Positions 36,471 through 47,820 of a stretch of DNA of 64,000 nt are shown piece by piece (positions within the stretch are counted from its first letter, which is position 1; every line of letters starts with the position of its first letter). The stretch is from the NCBI RefSeq assembly GCF_001618865.1, contig NZ_CP015136.1, positions 248,001 to 312,000 of the forward strand. Direction: 5' to 3'. This DNA is from Luteitalea pratensis (GTDB taxonomy: Bacteria > Acidobacteriota > Vicinamibacteria > Vicinamibacterales > Vicinamibacteraceae). Under the pieces are notes generated by a model. The model had not been told where the DNA came from, made no database searches, and was given only the letters and a program-made list of their open reading frames with translations. Both the position numbers and the translations under genes were made by a program.

Positions 36471-37827
<1,357 letters not shown>

Positions 37828-37856
<29 letters not shown>

Positions 37857-39699
37857 CGATGGCCGGAAGCACGATGGAGAAGGTCGAACCGCGATCGACC
37901 GAGCTCCGCACGAGGATGTCGCCTCCCCAGTGCCGCACGAAGTTCTTCGACAGGAACAGGCCCAGGCCCGTGCCGCCTGCCCGCATGCTGAAGAAGGGCT
38001 CGAAGATGTGCGCCTGATGCTCCGGGGTGATGCCGCAGCCGTTGTCGCTCACGTCGATCGTCACCTGCTGACCCGCGTGTGCGGTCGCGCCGACGCGAAC
38101 CGTGCCACCTGGCGGACTCGCCTGCACCGCGTTCAGGAGCAGGTTGATCAGGGCGTGCTGGAGTTCCGATTCCGCCGCCTTCACGCGCAATCGACGGGCG
38201 CCAGGGGCGTCGAGCACCAGCGCCACGCCACGCTCCCGTGCGGTGGGCGTCACAAGGCGCGTGGCCATCGCCATGGCCTCGCCGACGTCCACCACCTGTG
38301 CGACCGACGGATCCCCGCGCGCCATCCGGAGGAACTGCTGGGTGATGCCCCGGCAGCGCAGGACCTGCTCGCGCGCGGTGGCGGCATAGTCGCGGACATA
38401 TGCCCAGTCGGAGTTCTCGCCGTTGTGCGTCATCTCGCGCCCGATGCCCTCGACGCACGCGAGCACGGTGCCGAGGGGCGTGTTGAGTTCGTGCGAGAAT
38501 CCCGATGCGAGCAGGCCCAGCGATGCGAGCTTGTGCGACTCGGCCAGCTGCGCCTCGGCGGCACGTCGTTCCGAGATGTCACGCCAGACCTCGACGACGT
38601 GGACGTTGCCGTCGGGCAGTCGCGTCACGGGCGAGGCGTGTACCTCCTCCCAGGCGACCGAGCCGTCGGGGGTGTGCCGTTCGCAGATGCGGATTTGTGG
38701 TTGTCCCGACTCGAGGCACGCCATTGTCGGGCAGTCGACGACCGCGCACGCGGCCGCGCCATCCCTTCGGCAGGAGTCGCCGAGCAGGGTCTCGCGCGAC
38801 GTGCCGAACCGCGTGATGAAGGCGGTATTGGCGGCCACCACCTTCCGGTCGGCATCGAGGACGACGATTCCGTCCTCGATACTGTTGATGATCGTCTCGA
38901 GACGCTCGCGTTCTCCCTGGACCTGCCCGACGAGCGAGCTCACCGAGTCGGCCATGGTGTTGAACTCGCGCGCCAGCCGCGAGATGGTGTCGCTTCCGGT
39001 CACTGGCACGCGCCTGTCGAGGTTTCCCTGCGCGATCTGCCGCGCCGCCGCCTCGAAGCGCTGCAGCCGCCGGAGCACGAGCACGCGCACGATGAGGCCG
39101 AGCGCCGCCACCAGCAGGATGGTGATGGCGGCGGTGACACCGACCATCCACCGGAGGTCGCGTCCGGCGGCCGCATGAATCTCCGCCGCGTCGAGATCCG
39201 AGATCAGGACGCCGTTGATGGCGTGCCTGGAGTCGTGACATTCGTGACATTCGGCGCGATTGCGGATGGGTACCACGGTCCGCAGGATCTGGCTGCCGGC
39301 GGTGTCGATGACGCGGCTCGAGGTGCGCGCCGCGGGTGGGTACCGGTGACACGCCTGGCAGGTGGGCGATGCGATATCGAGGTCGTCGTCCGCGATCGGT
39401 CGGCCCGAGAAGTGCACCTTCCCCTGACGATCGAGCAGCATCACGTTGATCACGTGCGGCTCACGGCCGAAGGTCGCGATCATCCGCGAGATCAGCGTGC
39501 GGTCGTCCTCGAGCATTGCGTGCTCGAGCGCACCCCGAATCAGCTCCGACCGGGCGACCGCGTCGCGCCGCGCCGTCTCGATCAGCGTCTCTGTGTGGCG
39601 GAGTGAATAGAGGTAGGCTCCCGCGGCCGAGGCGATGCTTGCCGCTGCCGTGATGCCGAGGGCCAGACCAACCGTCGTGCTGGTCAACCGCGGTCGCAT
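37828..39699 (-). CDS. Membrane histidine kinase with extracytoplasmic di-CxxCH (heme c) sensor
   Basis: A 623-residue sensor kinase. Order: TM1 (about 7-31), an extracytoplasmic domain (32-183) with two c-type heme motifs CQACH (114-118) and CHECH (151-155), TM2 (about 184-208), HAMP (about 206-258), a PAS domain containing a cysteine-rich insert (SCRRDGAAACAVVDCPTMAC), HisKA (FSHELNTPLGT) and HATPase (NLLLNAVQAS, DNGCGI, GTGLGLFLSK). It probably senses redox state or a heme ligand outside the cytoplasm and phosphorylates the adjacent sigma-54 regulator. The start is ATG at 39699; a TTG 20 codons upstream is less likely because it reaches into the operator region. Confidence 0.88.
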
Positions 39700-39762
39700 G
39701 ACACCGCCTGCCCGCGCGAAGCGCGAGCGTATCGTGGCAGAGTCCGAATGCCCCGTCAACGA

Positions 39763-39777
39763 CTGACGGAACGTCAG
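39763..39777. promoter_or_regulatory. Inverted-repeat activator site upstream of the sigma-54 promoter
   Basis: CTGACG-GAA-CGTCAG, a perfect six-base inverted repeat, about 90 bases upstream of the -24 element. Related half-sites flank it (GTCA...TGAC at 39755-39767 and TCAG...CTGA just to the right), suggesting several bound dimers of the NtrC-type regulator. Confidence 0.6.
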
Positions 39778-39860
39778 CGTCGGCCTGACACATTGGCAGG
39801 CAAGGGTGGAATCTGCGCCCCGCGTCCCGCGGGATCACGGCGTTGACGACTCCTCAACGC

Positions 39861-39876
39861 TGGCACCCATCGTGCT
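39861..39876 (+). promoter_or_regulatory. Sigma-54 (-24/-12) promoter of the electron-transfer operon
   Basis: TGGCAC-CCATC-GTGCT matches the TGGCAC-N5-TTGCW consensus with the invariant GG and GC correctly ten bases apart. Transcription should start near 39887, just ahead of the AAGGAGG ribosome-binding site (39898-39904) and the ATG at 39910. A sigma-54 response regulator is encoded divergently. Confidence 0.8.
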
Positions 39877-39909
39877 CCTTCACGAGGCAACGTCTGCAAG
39901 GAGGCCCCG

Positions 39910-40227
39910 ATGGGAGTGCTACTGATGCTCGGTCTGGCCGTGATCGTCACTGCGTTGCAGGCTGTGATCCTGGCCTATCTCTGGCGCGAGTCACAGGTTT
40001 CGACGCCACCGGTCCTCCACGCCGCCGACGTGCTGGGCCCACCGCGGTTCTTCCAGGTCAGTGTCGGCCCCGCGGCTCACGGCGCGCCTGCCAGCGCCCA
40101 CCTACCGCTGCTGCTGCAACGGCTCGAACAGCACATTCGTCTCGAAAAGGCCGCCGCGGAGTCGTTCCACCGGTACCCGACGGTCGCGTCCCTCCACAAG
40201 CACACCGACTCTCCACTCCTGCACTGA
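39910..40227 (+). CDS. Small single-pass membrane protein leading the sigma-54 operon
   Basis: A 105-residue protein with one N-terminal membrane helix (VLLMLGLAVIVTALQAVILAYLW) and a polar C-terminus ending in a His-rich helix (LLLQRLEQHIRLEKAAAESFHRYP, SLHKHTDSPLLH). I do not recognise the family. As first gene of the operon, with a strong AAGGAGG site, it is probably an assembly or anchoring subunit of the complex. It has no Cys and so no c-type heme site. Being N-in or N-out is not decided by the sequence. Confidence 0.75.
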   Translation: MGVLLMLGLAVIVTALQAVILAYLWRESQVSTPPVLHAADVLGPPRFFQVSVGPAAHGAPASAHLPLLLQRLEQHIRLEKAAAESFHRYPTVASLHKHTDSPLLH

Positions 40228-40230
40228 GGT

Positions 40231-40704
40231 ATGGCCATGACACCGCACCCGGAACTCTTCTCCGGCCTCTCCGATTCGGACGCGACAGCGCTCGAGGCCC
40301 GGGGTTCGCGACTCACGCTCGAGCCCGGGCAGGTGCTGTTCCGCATCGGTGACGACGCCACTCGCCTGTACATCGTCGCTCACGGTGTGATCGAGCTGCG
40401 GATGCCGATGCAGGTGGAGGGGCACGACGAGGACGTGCGCATCGAGGACTGCGCGGCAGGCCAGACGCTGGGGTGGTCCACGCTCGTCCCGCCACATCGC
40501 TTCACGCTCAAGGCCGAGGCGCGGCAGCCCACGGAGTTGCTCGCGTTTCCGCGCGACATGCTGCTGGCCTACTTCACGAGCCGTCCCGACGTGGGCTACG
40601 TGGTACTGGGCAACATCGCTGCCCTCCTCGGACAGCGTCTCCAGGTGTTCCAGACCATGTGGGTCCGCGAGGTCCAGCACGTCGTGGATCTCGCTCATGG
40701 CTAG
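40231..40704 (+). CDS. Stand-alone cyclic-nucleotide-binding-fold protein (no HTH)
   Basis: A 157-residue protein with a Crp-type beta-roll (FSGLSDSDATALEARGSRLTLEPGQVLFRIGDDATRLYIVAHGVIELRM) but no DNA-binding domain. The phosphate-binding cassette is degenerate: AGQTLGWSTLVPPHRFTLKAEA lacks the usual GE and the R-x-A-T/S pattern, so cAMP binding is doubtful. Residues ~120-157 form a helix that could be an interaction surface. Lying within the electron-transfer operon, it could regulate the complex post-translationally. The start follows the previous stop by three bases; ATG at 40237 is an alternative, and the next gene overlaps by eight bases. Confidence 0.82.
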   Translation: MAMTPHPELFSGLSDSDATALEARGSRLTLEPGQVLFRIGDDATRLYIVAHGVIELRMPMQVEGHDEDVRIEDCAAGQTLGWSTLVPPHRFTLKAEARQPTELLAFPRDMLLAYFTSRPDVGYVVLGNIAALLGQRLQVFQTMWVREVQHVVDLAHG

Positions 40705-41278
40705 CAGGCTCGTCGCACCGTGTCGGTCTATCGCGGCGATCGCCCTGATGGCCTGCCTGTCCGGATGCAGCGACGCCGTGTCGGCCCGCGACACGACCCG
40801 CGACGCGGCCGGCGGCGCCCAGGCGCGCGCCGTCGCCTCGTCGGCCCCGACGCTGGTGGAAGTGCCACCACCGCCGTTCTCCGAGGGCGTCTTTCCCTGC
40901 TCCGGGTGCCACGCGGAGCCCGATCTTCCGCCCAATCGGATACGACGGCCCCTGGTGGACGCGCACGACGAGATCGTGCTGAAGCACGACGAGCAGCATC
41001 GCTGGTGCCTCGACTGCCACGACGCGACCAATCGCGACCAGCTCCATCTCGCGAGCGGCGAACTCCTGCCATTCGCCCAGTCGTACGACCTGTGCGGTCA
41101 GTGCCACGGCGAGAAGGTGCGTGACTGGCGAGCCGGCGTGCACGGGCGCCGGACCGGCTCCTGGAACGGCCGGAAGGAATACTTGCTGTGCGTGCACTGT
41201 CACGACCCGCACGCGCCGCGTTTCAAGGCCCTGGCCCCGAAGCCTGCGCCGATGCGGCCGGACCGCATGACGCGGTAG
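40697..41278 (+). CDS. Tetraheme c-type cytochrome lipoprotein
   Basis: A 193-residue exported lipoprotein (lipobox LSGC after MASRLVAPCRSIAAIALMAC). It has four CxxCH sites: CSGCH, CLDCH, CGQCH and CVHCH, the last in LLCVHCHDPHAP, and several other His residues as distal ligands. It resembles the DsrJ/Nrf-type or Cbc-type small multiheme subunits of membrane quinone-oxidising complexes. It probably receives electrons from, or donates to, the iron-sulfur subunit encoded next. It overlaps the upstream gene by eight bases and is separated from the next start by about 30 bases. Confidence 0.9.
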   Translation: MASRLVAPCRSIAAIALMACLSGCSDAVSARDTTRDAAGGAQARAVASSAPTLVEVPPPPFSEGVFPCSGCHAEPDLPPNRIRRPLVDAHDEIVLKHDEQHRWCLDCHDATNRDQLHLASGELLPFAQSYDLCGQCHGEKVRDWRAGVHGRRTGSWNGRKEYLLCVHCHDPHAPRFKALAPKPAPMRPDRMTR

Positions 41279-41309
41279 CGCGGTGTCGGCCTCGTCAAGG
41301 GAGCTTGCT

Positions 41310-42182
41310 GTGGACACCACACCCGAGCCGGTCTCACGGCGGACCTTCGCGACCTGCGCCGCCGCCGCGGCAGCCGGCTTCGTGTTGACCGCGTGCGGCC
41401 CGAAACGGCTGTACGACGTGCCTCGTGAGCGCCTGCGACAGCTGGTGCGCGACATGGAGCGCGAGTATTCCTCCAAGTACGGCAAGGACGTGACGGTGTC
41501 GGATGCCGGGCCGCAACCCGGGGTCCTGTTCGGATACGCCCTCGACATCTCGCGATGCATCGGCTGCCGCCGCTGCGTCTACGCCTGCGTCGAGGAGAAC
41601 AACCAGTCTCGCGATCCGCAGGTGCACTGGATCCGCGTCCTCCAGATGGACAAGGCACACGGGGTCGACTTCGCGCACGCCGACGAGTACTACGAGCCCG
41701 AGCTGGTGCCCGAGGACGGCAAGTTCTACGTGCCGGTGCAGTGCCAGCAGTGCGAGGACCCGCCGTGCACCAAGGTGTGTCCGACCGGCGCGACGTGGAA
41801 AGAGAAGGACGGCATCGTGGTGATCGACTACGACTGGTGCATCGGCTGCCGCTGCTGCATGGCCGCCTGCCCGTACGGGGCCCGGCACTTCAACTGGAAG
41901 GCGCCGTCGATCGCCAGCAAGGACGTCAATCCGTCCATGCACTATCTGGGCAACCGGCCGCGGCCGAAGGGCGTGGTCGAGAAGTGCACGTTCTGCATCC
42001 AGCGCGTCCGCGCCGGACGTTATCCCGCCTGCGTCGAAGTGTGTCCGGTCGGCGCCCGCAAGTTCGGCAACCTGCTCGATCCCGACAGCGAAATCCGCTA
42101 CATCATCGAGCACAAGCGTGTGATGGTGCTGAAGGAAGAACTCAACACCATGCCGAAGTTCTTCTACTTCTACGCAACGTGA
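41310..42182 (+). CDS. Tat-exported four-[4Fe-4S] ferredoxin subunit (DsrO/HmeA/NrfC-like)
   Basis: A 290-residue iron-sulfur protein with a twin-arginine leader (SRRTFATCAAAAAAGFVLTACG) ending in a possible lipobox. Sixteen cysteines form four clusters in the DMSO-reductase B-subunit arrangement: CIGCRRCVYAC, CQQCEDPPCTKVCP, CIGCRCCMAACPYG and CTFCIQRV with CVEVCPVGA. It links a membrane quinone-interacting protein to periplasmic cytochromes. The start was moved to GTG 41310 because AAGGGAG lies six bases before it; an earlier in-frame GTG at 41283 lacks a site. NrfD-like subunit follows. Confidence 0.9.
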   Translation: MDTTPEPVSRRTFATCAAAAAAGFVLTACGPKRLYDVPRERLRQLVRDMEREYSSKYGKDVTVSDAGPQPGVLFGYALDISRCIGCRRCVYACVEENNQSRDPQVHWIRVLQMDKAHGVDFAHADEYYEPELVPEDGKFYVPVQCQQCEDPPCTKVCPTGATWKEKDGIVVIDYDWCIGCRCCMAACPYGARHFNWKAPSIASKDVNPSMHYLGNRPRPKGVVEKCTFCIQRVRAGRYPACVEVCPVGARKFGNLLDPDSEIRYIIEHKRVMVLKEELNTMPKFFYFYAT

Positions 42183-42189
42183 GGCGGCC

Positions 42190-43449
42190 GTGGAGACCAT
42201 GCGCGCGTTCGTCGGGTTCGGCACCACCAGCCTGCGGCTCGTCTCACGGGGCGACGCGCTCTACTGGGGCTGGATTGGCGTGCTCCTGCTGCTGGTGGCG
42301 TCGGGGATGCTGGCCTACGTGGACCAGTTCCGCGTCGGCCTGGCGGTCACGGCGATGCGCGACCCGGTGAGCTGGGCCTTCTACATCGGCAACTTCACGT
42401 TCATGGTGGGGGTCGCAGCTGCCGCCGTGGTGCTGGTGATCCCGGCCTACGTCTACGACTGGAAGCCGATCCGCGAGGTCGTGATCATCGGTGAGCTGCT
42501 GGCGGTGAGCGCCATCCTGATCTGCCTGCTGTTCGTCCTGGTCGACATCGGCCGCCCGGAGCGTTTCTGGCACGTCCTTCCCGTGATCGGGTACCTCAAC
42601 TTCCCGCGCTCGGTCATGGCCTGGGACGTGATCGTGCTCAACCTCTATCTGCTGATCAACCTGATCGTCGTGACGCACGTGCTGTTCAGCACGTTCCGCG
42701 GCCGGCACTACTCGATGCGGCTGGTGCTGCCGCTGGTGCTGCTCTCGATCCCGATGGCGATAGGGATTCACACGGTGACGGCGTTCCTCTACACGGGCAT
42801 GGCGGCGCGGCCCTACTGGAACGCCTCGATCCTGGCGCCGCAGTTCCTGGCCTCGGCGTTCAGCTCCGGCCCGGCCATCCTGCTGATCGTGCTGCAGTTG
42901 CTGCGGCGCTTCACCGCCTTCGAGATCCGTGACGAGGCCATTCAGAAGATCGCCGAGCTGATGGCCTACGCGATCTTCCTCAATCTGTTCTTCCACGGCG
43001 CCGAGGTGTTCAAGGAGTACTACTCGAACACCGAGCACTCGCTCTACACGCGGTACTGGTTCGAGGGAATCGGCGCACACCGTACGCTGGTCCCGTACGC
43101 ATGGGCGGCGGTGGGGCTCCAGGCCCTGGCGCTGGTCCTGTTCGTCGTGCCGGCGCTGCGGCGACACCCGGTCATGCTCAACGTCGGCGCGATGGCGACC
43201 TACGCCGGCGGCTACATCGAGAAGGGCATGGGCCTGATCATCCCCGGCTTCACGCCCGACACGTTGGGCGCCATCTACGAGTACTCGCCGACGATCCACG
43301 AACTGCGCGTGGCGGCCGGCGTGTTCGCGGTCGGATTCCTGGTCTTCACGTTCCTGCTTCGAGTGGCGGTGCCAATCCTGCTCGGGCAGGAGCGCCTGGC
43401 AGGCAGCTCACATCCGATGGAGAGTCAGCGCCCATGGACGCGCGCGTGA
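42190..43449 (+). CDS. NrfD/DsrP-like polytopic quinone-interacting membrane subunit
   Basis: A 419-residue protein with about ten membrane helices of the NrfD/PsrC superfamily, closest in my reading to DsrP/HmeB (DIGRPERFWHVLP, GYLNFPRSVMAWDVIVLNLYLL, IPMAIGIHTVTAFLYTGM). Such subunits oxidise or reduce menaquinone and pass electrons to the partner iron-sulfur protein. The operon lacks a catalytic molybdoenzyme and the DsrMK subunits, so the complex probably exchanges electrons between quinone and the tetraheme cytochrome. The start is GTG at 42190 with GAGGCGG upstream; ATG 42199 is an alternative. It is the last gene of the operon, convergent with the hybrid kinase. Confidence 0.9.
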   Translation: METMRAFVGFGTTSLRLVSRGDALYWGWIGVLLLLVASGMLAYVDQFRVGLAVTAMRDPVSWAFYIGNFTFMVGVAAAAVVLVIPAYVYDWKPIREVVIIGELLAVSAILICLLFVLVDIGRPERFWHVLPVIGYLNFPRSVMAWDVIVLNLYLLINLIVVTHVLFSTFRGRHYSMRLVLPLVLLSIPMAIGIHTVTAFLYTGMAARPYWNASILAPQFLASAFSSGPAILLIVLQLLRRFTAFEIRDEAIQKIAELMAYAIFLNLFFHGAEVFKEYYSNTEHSLYTRYWFEGIGAHRTLVPYAWAAVGLQALALVLFVVPALRRHPVMLNVGAMATYAGGYIEKGMGLIIPGFTPDTLGAIYEYSPTIHELRVAAGVFAVGFLVFTFLLRVAVPILLGQERLAGSSHPMESQRPWTRA

Positions 43450-43460
43450 CGCGCTCGGCG

Positions 43461-46427
43461 TCAGGTTCCCGACGCGACCGCCTGCCCGCCATCGAGCAGC
43501 TCGCGAACCTTGCGCGCCAGGGCTTGAGGCGTGAACGGCTTCTGCAGGAACGCGTCGGCCGCGGCGTCCAGACCGTGCCGCACGACGGCGTCGTCGGTGT
43601 AACCACTGATGTACAGCACGCGCAGCGCCGGCCAGCGCCCACGCAAGGCCTGCGCCAGTTGACGGCCGCCGATCCCTGGCATGATCACGTCGGTGATCAA
43701 CAGCTTCACGTGCGCGAGCTCGTGTTCCATCGACCGCGCTTCGCGCGCCGATGCGGCCACGCGCACGCGATAGCCCTGTAGCTCGAGGGACACTCTCGTG
43801 AAGCGTCGTACGGCTTCTTCGTCCTCGACGAGGAGCACCGTCTCGTGCCCCCGCGGCGACGCCTGCGCGCTTGCCTTCGGGGGAGGCTCGCTCGCCGACT
43901 CCAGCGCCGGGAACATGACGTGGAACGCCGTTCCGCGTCCCACCTCGCTGTCGACCAGCACGGTGCCGCCCGCCTGGCGGACGATGCCGTAGACCGTGGC
44001 CAGACCGAGTCCGGTGCCTTTGCCGATGCCCTTGGTCGTGAAGAACGGCTCGAACAGGTGCGACTTCACCTCGTCGGACATGCCGATACCGGTATCGGAG
44101 ACGATCAAGCGCACGTAGCGGCCCGATGTCGTGTCAGAGGACTCGCCTTTCAGCCCGACCGGCAGCAACGTTTCCTTCGTGGCCACCCGCAACTGGCCGC
44201 CGGTCGGCATCGCATCGCGGGCGTTGACGACGAGGTTCATCAGCACCTGTTCGAGCTGGCCCGGATCGATGCGGATCTTCGGCAACGAGGGCGCGAATGT
44301 GGCCTCGAAGCGCACGTCCTCGCCCACGAGCCGCTTGAGGAGGCGGACAGCCGAGGCGGTGGCCTCGTTGAGGTCGAGCACCTTCGGTTCGACAATGGCC
44401 TTGCGACTGAACGCGAGTAATTGTGCGGTCAGGGCGGCGGCCCGTTCACCGGCATCGCGGACTTCCGCCAGCGACTCGCGTCGGGGCGACAGCGGCGGCT
44501 CGTCGTCGAGCAGCAACGCGGTGTAGCCGTTGATCACCGTGAGCAGGTTGTTGAAGTCGTGGGCGACGCCTCCCGCCAGCTGTCCGATCGCCTCCATCTT
44601 CTGTGCCTGCCGGATCTGCTCGCCGAGCCGGCGCTCTTCGGTGATGTCGCGGGTGAAGCCGTAGATGGACTGCTGGTCGAGGAACGCAATCGCGTTCCAC
44701 GAGAACCAGCGGTACGAACCATCCCTGGCCCGATAGCGGTTCACGAACCCGTACACGCGTTCACCGCGGCGCAGTTGATCGCCGACGATCCTGGTTGCCT
44801 CGACGTCGTCGGGGTGGACGAACGACAGCCAGGGTTCCGCTTGCAGTTCCTCGGCCGTCCAGCCCAGGCGCTCCGTCCACGCCGGGTTGAGATGATGCAG
44901 GTAGCCATCGAAGCCGGCGATGCACACCGGGTCGGGCGAGTTGTTCCAGAGATAGTCCCGCTCCTGCTGTGCAGCCTTGCGGTCGGTGATGTCGGTCGAG
45001 ATGCCGCAGAGCGCGTAGGGTACGCCGTTGCCCCGAAACAGTGGAAACTGCGTCGAAAGCATCGTGATGTGGCGACCGTCCCGGTCAGTGCCTGTCTCCT
45101 CGACCTGACGCGGGCGCAACGTCTCTCGCACGATCTGGTCGTTGCGTTCGAACTGGTCGGCCATCTCCGGCGTCACGAGTTCCCGTGCGGTGCGGCCCAT
45201 CCAGTGGTCGTAGGGCAGGCCGAGCAACTCCACCACCTGCCGATTCACGAACTGGTAGCGTCCGTCGAGATCCTTCAGGTAGACGAGCGCCGGCGAGGCG
45301 TCGAGTACGTTCCGGAAGCGCTCTTCACTGTCGCGGACGGCCTGCCGTACGAGCCCCGCCTCGATCGCCGCCCGCGCCAGGTGCGCCGCGCCGGCCACGG
45401 CGAGCGCATTCGTCGAACCATCAACGGCGGTGTCTGAACCGGAACCGCCCGACTGCGCACCGGCCACGATCGCGAAGGCGTGTGGATTGGGCGGGCCGGC
45501 CTCGTGTCGGTACACGGCGAACGTGCCGAGCACCCGCCCGGTCTCCATGCCAGGCACGTTGCCGCTGGCCAGGATCGGCACGGAAATGCACGAGCGCAGA
45601 TCGTGCGCCAGGGCCAGTTCGCTGAAGCTCTGCCACACCGGGTCGGTGGCGATGTCCGACGTGACCACGGTACGACCGAAAAATGCCGCGGAGCCGCACG
45701 ACCCCTGGTCTGGCCCGATGGGCTGCCCCTGGATCGCCGTGTTGTACGCGGACGGCAGCGAAGGCGCCGCGCCGACGCGCAGGCATCCGGTCCGGTCGAG
45801 CAGCAACACGGAGCAGAAGGAGCCAGGCAACTGCGCCTCGACCATCTGCACCACGTCGGCGAGCGTCTCCTCGAGCGGTGTGTCGCGCGCGATCAGCTCG
45901 AGGATGCGGTTGTGCCAGATGAGCGCATCTTCCGTCCGGCGGCGCGCGTTCGCGGCGCTGGCGGCATCACGGGCGCCGCGCCGGCGCTCCTCGGTCTGGC
46001 GAGACGTGTCCGGCGCGATCCGCGCCGCGGACTTCCCGTCCTTGCGCGCCGTGATGTCCTCCGCGATCCCCACCACGCCGCCCGTCGTGCCATCGGGATG
46101 CCGCAGGAGCCGGACCCGCGCGTCGAGCCAGAGGCGCGAGCCGTCGCTCCGCAGGTCCTCGCACTCGCCATCCCAGTCGACGCCATCGAGCATGGCCCGC
46201 ATCAGGGTGGGCAGATCGGTTCGCGAGTGTTGGGGGAGGCGCTCGAGCAGCGGCCGTCCGACGATCTGCTCGGCGCTGCAGCCGAACACGCACACGGCGC
46301 CGTCGTTCCAGTAGGTGATACGGCCCGTCGTATCGGTGACGACGACGGCCTGACGGACGGCCGTCAAGACCAACGCTGCGAGCGCGGTCGCCTGCTCAGG
46401 CAGCGGGAGCGTGCGCGACGGAGTCAT
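43461..46427 (-). CDS. Cytoplasmic multi-PAS/GAF hybrid histidine kinase with receiver
   Basis: A 988-residue kinase without membrane helices. Order: PAS1 ([23 protein letters not shown]), GAF ([41 protein letters not shown]), PAS2 ([18 protein letters not shown]), PAS3 ([22 protein letters not shown]), HisKA of the AHDFNNLLT type, HATPase ([31 protein letters not shown]) and a C-terminal receiver ([10 protein letters not shown]). It is a one-component hybrid that needs a separate phosphotransfer partner, none of which is nearby. The start at 46427 was preferred over 46529, which would overlap the divergent esterase start. Confidence 0.88.
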
Positions 46428-46527
46428 CGATGGGGATCGTGGCCGATCATCGACTGTGGCTATCGGAGGTGAGTATAGACCTACCCGTTCCGGAGGGCGC
46501 CGGCATGCCGCCAACGTATAGTCGGCC

Positions 46528-47820
46528 ATGCCCGCCAGCCTCCCTGTGACACGCCGTCAGTTCCTGGATACGCTCGCCGCAGCGCCAGCGACCGCTGCAT
46601 GGAGTCGCGGCCTGGAACGTCCATCGTCGAGGGCGCAGCCGGGGGCTGTCGCTGAAGGGGCGCCGCCGGACCTGCCGCGCAGCCTCCGCCCCGCGGAGGC
46701 CGACCTCGGCGCCAACTTCGAGGCCGTCCGCGCCATCGATCCCGGCGCGTCCTATCCGGGGTCCTTTCTCTCCGGGCGGTTCGCATCGCTCGACGCCTTC
46801 ACGACCCAGGGTCGCGCGTCCATCCTCGACGCGTACGGTTATCGTCCCCCGCCTGTCGCGCCTGCTGCCGAGGTGCTGGACCGGTTCGAAGGGGCCGATT
46901 TCATTCGCGAGAAGGTCCTGTTCTCCACGACGCCGCAGTTCCGCGTGCCCGCGTACGTGCACATCCCGAAGCGACTGACCGGGCCGGCGCCGGCCATCGT
47001 CGACCTCCACTCGCACGGTGGAATGTTCCTGTTCGGCAAGGAGAAGGTCATCGACTTCGGGCGCAACCATCCGGCGATGACCACCTACCACACCGGCAAC
47101 TACGAGAGCCGGCCCACCGCGACGGCCCTGGTCAAGCGCGGCTACGTCGTGATCACCATCGACGCATTCATGTTCGGCGAACGCCGCGTGCTGATGGACG
47201 GCGACTTGTCAGCGGGCTGGGAGCGCGCGGCCTACACCGTCGACGATGTGCAACGTCTCAACCAGGTGTGCCGGGCGAAGGAGTCGACGCTGGCCAAGAC
47301 GCTGACCGTTCTCGGCATCAGCTGGCCCGGGATCGTCGCGTGGGACGACATGCGGACGGTGGACTACCTGCTCACCAGGCCGGAGGTGGATCCTGCACGC
47401 GTGGGGTGCGTCGGCGTGTCGTTCGGCGGCTGGCGGTCACTGTTCCTCTCCGCGCTCGATCCGCGCATCCGCGCGGGCTGCATCGTCGGCTTCATGTCCA
47501 CGATCCGGTCGATGTTGCGGCGGCATGTCGATACGCACTCGTGGGTCCACTTCGTGCCAGGCCTGCACCGGCACCTCGATCTGCCCGATGTCGTGAGCCT
47601 GAACGCGCCGCGGCCGCTGCTCGTGCAGCAGTGCCGTCGCGACGGGCTGTTTCCGCTCGAGGGGATGGAGGCGGCGGTGAAGACGGTGGCGGAGGCCTAT
47701 GCGAAGGCAGGCATCGCAGAGCGCTTCACGAGCCGGTTCTACGACGTCCCGCACCAGTTCAACGTGCAGATGCAGGAGGATGCCTTCGCGTGGTTCGACA
47801 CGCAGTTGCGTCGCGACTGA
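46528..47820 (+). CDS. Tat-exported alpha/beta hydrolase (acetylxylan-esterase-like)
   Basis: A 430-residue alpha/beta hydrolase with a twin-arginine leader (VTRRQFLDTLAAAPATAAW). Catalytic triad candidates are Ser in CVGVSFGGWRS, Asp in QCRRDGLFPL and His in FYDVPHQFN. The core strands IVDLHSHGGMFLFGKEK and GYVVITIDAFMFGERR resemble the DLH/acetylxylan esterase group. A secreted esterase acting on plant or microbial polysaccharide ornaments is plausible. No SD is obvious before the ATG. It is divergent from the hybrid kinase and convergent with the serine hydrolase. Confidence 0.82.
   Translation: MPASLPVTRRQFLDTLAAAPATAAWSRGLERPSSRAQPGAVAEGAPPDLPRSLRPAEADLGANFEAVRAIDPGASYPGSFLSGRFASLDAFTTQGRASILDAYGYRPPPVAPAAEVLDRFEGADFIREKVLFSTTPQFRVPAYVHIPKRLTGPAPAIVDLHSHGGMFLFGKEKVIDFGRNHPAMTTYHTGNYESRPTATALVKRGYVVITIDAFMFGERRVLMDGDLSAGWERAAYTVDDVQRLNQVCRAKESTLAKTLTVLGISWPGIVAWDDMRTVDYLLTRPEVDPARVGCVGVSFGGWRSLFLSALDPRIRAGCIVGFMSTIRSMLRRHVDTHSWVHFVPGLHRHLDLPDVVSLNAPRPLLVQQCRRDGLFPLEGMEAAVKTVAEAYAKAGIAERFTSRFYDVPHQFNVQMQEDAFAWFDTQLRRD

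Follow-up and report, generated by a model that had tools for sequence, protein, structure and literature searches.

Two transcription units diverge from a short control region in the window, by which we mean the whole stretch of 64,000 nucleotides of Luteitalea pratensis DNA analysed here. The region is bounded by the start of a sensor kinase gene (39699, minus strand) and the start of an operon (39910, plus strand). The kinase gene (37831-39699, minus strand) encodes a membrane sensor histidine kinase with two CXXCH motifs and with HAMP, PAS, HisKA and HATPase domains. It is accompanied on the same strand by the gene for an NtrC/AtoC-type response regulator (36474-37856; receiver, sigma-54 AAA+ domain and Fis HTH), which we propose as the binder of the two dyads described below.

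The operon comprises five genes, all on the plus strand. The first (39910-40224) specifies a protein of 105 amino acids with, by eye, one N-terminal membrane helix and without a match in Pfam or NCBIfam. The second (40231-40701) encodes a stand-alone protein of 157 amino acids with the cyclic-nucleotide-binding (cNMP) fold (PF00027), in which no DNA-binding domain was found. It may not bind a cyclic nucleotide, because by eye the usual letters of the phosphate-binding cassette are missing from it. Then follow a lipoprotein-like c-type cytochrome with four CXXCH motifs at the position of DsrJ (40697-41275), a DsrO-like iron-sulfur protein (41283-42179; NF045797, 180.6 bits, just below the cut-off of 200) and a DsrP/NrfD-type membrane protein (42190-43446; NF045798, 399.3 bits, above the cut-off of 350). 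The operon thus resembles DsrMKJOP in its DsrP above cut-off, its DsrO-like protein, its multi-CXXCH cytochrome and the order JOP, but it differs in the four CXXCH motifs of its cytochrome and in the two extra leading genes (105-aa and cNMP-fold); DsrM and DsrK are not among its five genes. Clustering of neighbouring frames, meant to reveal conserved flanking genes that would point to the electron acceptor, returned mostly frames opposite to or overlapping the genes of the module, plus the bc-operon genes. Tail to tail with the operon lies the gene for a hybrid histidine kinase of 1022 amino acids (43464-46529, minus strand; several PAS domains, GAF and a C-terminal receiver).

The sensor part of the divergent kinase passes the Pfam model Mcp40H-20_sensor (PF21563; 29.1 bits against a cut-off of 27), with CXXCH within the domain, and both CXXCH motifs of the kinase are invariant in all 17 aligned orthologues. 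Among PDB structures, the sensor matches 3B47 (E 4.5e-4) and 3B42 (E 0.021), presumably periplasmic c-heme PAS-type sensors of chemotaxis proteins of Geobacter origin, and the second CXXCH of the kinase aligns with that of 3B47. The kinase differs from these proteins by an additional CXXCH motif (CQACH), where 3B47 has one CXXCH in the aligned part, and by its output, a histidine kinase, where theirs are chemotaxis proteins. Judging from these motifs, it is possibly a di-heme redox sensor, which would carry heme and read the periplasmic redox state.

The initial annotation had ascribed to the adjoining response regulator a GAFTGA sigma-54 contact and a Fis HTH, and both are present (the HTH as PF02954, 43.3 bits; cut-off 22). 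The regulator shares the receiver-AAA+-Fis HTH architecture with GAFTGA with NtrC, AtoC, ZraR and GlrR, a family known to act on -24/-12 promoters from dyads that lie further upstream. Nevertheless, it scores below the cut-off of each NCBIfam model among the best 25 of 120, including the equivalogs AtoC, the best scoring of all these models (435.5 bits against 714), NtrC (405.2 against 558.6) and ZraR (360.1 against 760). The operators of NtrC and GlrR are unlike the dyads found here; the site of GlrR is TGTC-N10-GACA.

Sites in the divergent control region

Read along the plus strand, the control region consists of the -10 and -35 elements of the kinase promoter (both reversed), dyad 1, 7 bases, dyad 2, 60 bases, the -24/-12 element CTGGCACCCATCGTGCT, AAGGAGG and the ATG. 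Dyad 1, the putative distal activator site CTGACGGAACGTCAG (39763-39777), is centred at about -117 from the predicted transcription start of the operon; it is the perfect inverted repeat CTGACG/CGTCAG of the initial annotation and the sole exact match to CTGACG-N3-CGTCAG in the window (chance 0.02). The same annotation had described flanking half-sites, which turned out otherwise. The left one, CGTCAA (39754-39759), is the reverse complement of the TTGACG -35 box of the kinase promoter, while the right one opens a second full dyad that had been missed as such: dyad 2, the putative proximal activator site CTGACACATTGGCAG (39785-39799), centred at about -95, 22 bp from dyad 1 and 60 bp from the -24 box. 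The motif is better given as two copies of CTGAC(A/G)-N3-(T/C)G(T/G)CAG; allowing up to two mismatches, the tandem pair occurs nowhere else in the window (chance 0.01).

The predicted sigma-54 promoter CTGGCACCCATCGTGCT (39860-39876, plus strand) has letters of the TGGCAC/TTGC type and the GG-N10-GC spacing that is right for sigma-54. It reads CTGGCAC-N6-TGCT and is the sole match in the window to CTGGCAC-N6-TGCW (chance 0.06), with a predicted transcription start at about 39887. As annotated, it stands ahead of an ideal ribosome-binding site and start: the Shine-Dalgarno sequence AAGGAGG (39898-39904) lies 5 bases before the ATG at 39910. In the other direction, a sigma-70-like promoter for the kinase and regulator genes (39731-39759, minus strand) consists of TTGACG (39759-39754), 17 nt and CACGAT (39736-39731); its -35 box begins 3 bp from dyad 1. 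With 8 of 12 positions in agreement with the sigma-70 consensus, it falls below the threshold of a generic promoter scan, and is for that reason omitted by it.

Conservation and specificity of the tandem site

Kinase orthologues with 57-73% identity were found in 16 of 79 relatives (80 genomes including that of L. pratensis), and the upstream regions of these orthologues, taken in the direction of the operon, gave the motif. Conservation was scored in 53 regions: the window and the 52 of 80 named loci, many of them from metagenome-assembled genomes, that carry the 105-aa gene on the minus strand (some of the 105-aa homologues taken with the module have low scores, 24-54 bits). The other 28 named loci, several at contig ends, are without a usable 105-aa gene and stand outside the 53; L122, with its 105-aa match on the plus strand, is one of them. 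For L049, we adjusted the start of the 105-aa gene manually; that of L100 stands uncorrected. The -24 box was searched in a wider window in L053, L056, L058 and L100, and the shuffled sequences had the same windows. We required a score of at least 14 for the -24/-12 element and of at least 8.5 out of 10 for a dyad, and used 200 dinucleotide-shuffled sets as the control.

The initial annotation had made its reading depend on conservation upstream of orthologous operons, and over the 53 regions this conservation is clear. The best -24/-12 score reaches 14 in 45 of them (shuffle mean 0.88) and stays below it in eight. Dyad 2 stands 58-63 bp away from the -24 box in 47 regions (0.055 per shuffled set), and dyad 1 stands 80-86 bp away, likewise in 47 (0.095 per shuffled set). 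These distance windows were chosen with the distances in the same loci already known; an all-distance profile gives the same two peaks (39 plus 8 and 46 loci), other bins holding 0-2. Both dyads are in register in 45 of the 53 regions and in none per shuffled set, and all three features pass in 39. Shared ancestry of the loci inflates these raw counts, and we give a non-redundant set beside them: 12 of the 80 named loci correspond to loci from which the motif was derived, and removal of the nine that are among the 53, together with the window, leaves 43 regions, thinned of near-copies to 32. Each of the two dyads is found in 26 of these 32 loci; 24 have the pair, and 19 pass on all three features. 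The near-invariance of single motif columns is in part imposed by the score used to pick the sites, and was not counted as evidence.

The distance between the two dyads is 22 bp in 29 of 45 loci and 23 bp in 11. For the spacer between dyad 2 and the -24 box (39800-39859 in the window), the length is kept and the sequence hardly so: in the 47 loci chosen for a spacer of 58-63 bp, the median pairwise identity is 0.29, against 0.26 in shuffled sequences. Within it, T is weakly conserved 15-17 bp upstream of the -24 box (47 loci; one column up to 1.3 bits), perhaps an extra contact for the polymerase. One or both dyads are missing in register in eight of the 53 regions (L048, L050, L051, L061, L066, L085, L095 and L100). 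In four of these (L061, L066, L085 and L095), dyads do occur, but elsewhere relative to the -24 box that was chosen.

A genome-wide scan, such as the initial annotation had proposed, pointed to a single target: at zero or one mismatch, the tandem site occurs once in the 7.48-Mb genome (7,480,314 bp). A regulon of several operons in this genome was considered and discarded, there being no second tandem match at that stringency. With two or three mismatches, there are 22 other places, compared to 25 in all for a reversed control pattern. Two positions 468 bp apart (G000:C1:4881965 and 4882433) each match the tandem dyad with two mismatches and are probably a repeated stretch. The looser pattern of one dyad plus a -24/-12 element is not enriched over the 80 genomes, as it gives 168 matches versus 207 for the control. 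In L. pratensis itself, it gives 12 (two of them at this locus) versus 5; we claim no further target, since the three that were inspected among the other ten matches (173,685; 424,973; 776,649) all overlap long open frames. A single rpoN gene was found in the genome (458.1 bits, cut-off 277.35), and tblastn detected no viral-contig orthologue among 50 pattern matches.

The sites and their spacing are thus kept across many related bacteria, and on this ground the sequence bound by the neighbouring regulator can be predicted, as had been suggested. The annotated divergent region with its -24/-12 promoter and activator sites is, with the corrections given above, largely right.

The probable target of the dyads and their proposed binding protein

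Taken together, we very probably deal with a compact two-way control region, in which the neighbouring NtrC-type regulator acts on two dyads to drive the sigma-54 promoter of the operon. The co-occurrence of the genes is consistent with this. Among the 79 relatives, a DsrP orthologue (at least 555 bits) is present in 13, all of which have a kinase orthologue; the kinase occurs alone in three, and 63 have neither (Fisher p 2e-12, shared ancestry not being corrected for).

The first alternative to be weighed, which we consider improbable, holds that some other regulator binds the dyads while the neighbouring response regulator acts elsewhere. Binding by the neighbour is a prediction, and the genome contains some 32 other AAA+ sigma-54-activator-like matches, 29 of which were aligned and three not. 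The 29 aligned ones, however, have different recognition helices: in the recognition region, none of them matches the neighbouring regulator at more than 8 of 14 residues. Furthermore, kinase and operon not only co-occur but adjoin in most loci that hold both. Across loci, the dyad tracks the type of helix. An ISER(N/T)LYRK helix accompanies it in most cases, in a comparison that includes truncated regulators in L086 and L098, while L109 and L115, where the helix reads IGERSLYRK, have neither a dyad pair nor any dyad near a promoter. L103 goes against this trend, for its nearly identical helix (ISERNLYRR) comes without a dyad pair and without a dyad near a -24/-12 box.

A little less probable again is that the dyads serve the kinase and regulator genes by autoregulation, and not, or not mainly, the operon. 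Two observations speak for it: a kinase promoter element of this kind, TTGAC followed by 16 to 18 nt, is present in 35 of 45 orthologous regions (0.39 on average after single-base shuffling), and in 21 of 47 loci 3 bp separate the -35 box from dyad 1 (in a 22nd, L072, the match is weak). Nevertheless, the distance from the dyads to the -24 box varies less than that to the -35 box, and the genomes in which kinase and operon have come apart are telling. The two are separated by about 7.4 kb in G055 (locus L056), by about 4 kb in G016 (L077) and by another frame in G021. All three have the dyad pair (22-23 bp apart) in front of the operon, with the -24 box 59-61 bp further on; over the 500 bp that precede the kinase, no dyad reaches a score of 8.5. 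As all three readable split genomes have the dyads at the operon and none at the kinase, we take the operon for their target. The -12 element of the displaced operon in G021 is off consensus, and a -24/-12 threshold of 14.5 misses this site. In G060, the operon is on another contig than the kinase, and one weak dyad match (8.5) lies at the kinase. No complex gene was seen behind the cNMP gene in G052, and L064 has the kinase with no operon gene in the 10 kb upstream.

That the -35 box abuts dyad 1 makes some feedback possible. As an addition to the one at the operon, such a role at the kinase promoter is quite possible, if slightly less likely than not.

The -24/-12 match could also be coincidental, with the operon read from an ordinary promoter and the dyads serving an ordinary activator or repressor. 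The eight regions scoring below 14 would fit such a coincidence, which is very unlikely in view of the 45 regions that do reach the threshold against less than one in the shuffled sets, and of the distance of 58-63 bp to dyad 2. That the dyads are chance palindromes in G+C-rich DNA is next to inconceivable: a second perfect CTGACG-N3-CGTCAG does exist in the genome, at 2,129,406, with neither a second dyad nor a -24/-12 element scoring at least 14 within 400 bp, but the conservation in the 53 regions and in the 32 non-redundant loci already refutes chance, and the tandem site with at most one mismatch is unique.

Under control of the operon by the neighbouring regulator, the switch would work as follows. 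The kinase with its heme motifs, when active, would phosphorylate the response regulator and so activate it. Dimers of the regulator would then occupy the two tandem 15-bp dyads, which at 22 bp apart are two helix turns from each other, assemble the AAA+ ring there and reach the sigma-54 polymerase at the -24/-12 promoter 60 bp away. The operon for a DsrJOP-like quinone/cytochrome electron-transfer complex would thereby be switched on, the kinase and regulator genes being transcribed in the opposite direction from a sigma-70-like promoter of their own. The direction in which electrons pass through the complex is likewise something that we infer.

An arrangement of this kind has a precedent in Desulfovibrio: the gene for the enhancer-binding protein DVU3142 stands back to back with ohcBAC, an electron-transport operon that has a sigma-54 promoter and predicted binding sites, and most regulons of that study comprise one to four operons (Kazakov et al. 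2015, PMC4641369). The likeness is one of layout; the complex is another one (octaheme cytochrome OhcA, OhcB and OhcC) and so is the phylum. The CTGACG-type dyad motif, looked for in six spellings, occurs in no paper of the literature searched, in which we also found none on Acidobacteria with Rieske, NrfD or two-component systems and none on BccR/CbcL. Among the matches listed for heme sensor kinases, DsrMKJOP/NrfD, Luteitalea pratensis and Acidobacteriota sigma54, nothing concerns this system, as judged from titles and the opening lines of abstracts. In the searched main text of a broad sigma-54 survey (PMC12316311), no word begins with Acidobacteri. The arrangement is thus known from DVU3142/ohc, while the regulator and its operator seem to be undescribed in the literature searched. 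N2O reduction has been shown in L. pratensis (PMC13122619, a 2026 paper); we claim no tie to the operon.

Related loci and apparent exchange of the complex

By operon class, the 80 named loci divide into 32 with DsrOP genes, 19 with Rieske/cytochrome b genes, five with molybdopterin genes and 24 unclassified, many of which are cut by contig ends. In one clade of Acidobacteriia (L059, L060, L062, L063, L065, L067 and others), genes for a Rieske protein, a cytochrome b and a cytochrome with nine CXXCH motifs replace the DsrJOP-like genes. Pfam backs the Rieske and multi-CXXCH proteins in two loci, L063 and L065, and the cytochrome b in the latter; the other loci were assigned by similarity to L065. 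The Rieske genes of L070 lie on the far side of the regulator instead of following the cNMP gene.

In a tree of kinase plus regulator, inferred by a quick method from 54 rows (leaving aside the 24 unclassified loci and, for a missing regulator or because of score limits, L088, L104 and L121), all 18 rows with Rieske/cytochrome b genes cluster together (SH-aLRT 100), surrounded by DsrOP rows. One replacement therefore explains the Rieske/cytochrome b loci; its direction rests on this nesting, since the root was not inferred.

Dyads also occur in more distant loci, whose assignment to Myxococcota and Gemmatimonadota follows the titles of the records, and titles of metagenome records may mislabel phyla. 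Five Myxococcota loci (L107, L108, L110, L111 and L120) have the order kinase-regulator-cytochrome-DsrO-DsrP on one strand, and in all five a dyad is located 78-79 bp from the -24/-12 box, that is, some 18 bp further than dyad 2 in Acidobacteriota. The dyads of L105 and L112 are at 74-77 bp, and L101, which has a different gene order, shows none. Of the loci that adjoin molybdopterin-NrfD genes, L106 carries two dyads 32 bp apart and L121 carries three; L103, L109 and L115 show neither a pair nor a dyad near a promoter. A pair 32 bp apart also occurs in L114, where the operon is unclassified.

Tentatively, and with rather more doubt than confidence, these loci may be read jointly. Kinases whose sensors bear two heme motifs would form a family together with their NtrC-type regulators, and at least across Acidobacteriota, Myxococcota and Gemmatimonadota its members would have the operator (CTGAC-N5-GTCAG dyads) and the type of recognition helix in common. 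Such a family would serve quinone-reactive membrane complexes as a general redox switch. The core of the Acidobacteriota-type loci would be the switch with the 105-aa and cNMP-fold genes, and the complex behind it would be exchangeable: DsrJOP-like; Rieske/cytochrome b/nonaheme cytochrome; perhaps, in more distant paralogues, molybdopterin-NrfD types. The kept distance of 60 bp would reflect a short, stiff bridge between activator and polymerase.

The analysis provides a sigma-54 activator of Acidobacteriota, which abound in soil, with a concrete predicted operator; for these bacteria there was none among the matches listed. The narrow range of its spacing can be used for testing the limits that geometry sets to short-range sigma-54 activation. 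The complex appears to have been replaced once while the switch stayed as it was, which amounts to a natural experiment on what the sensor measures, and a kinase with heme motifs tied to one electron-transfer operon suggests when these bacteria rewire their respiration.
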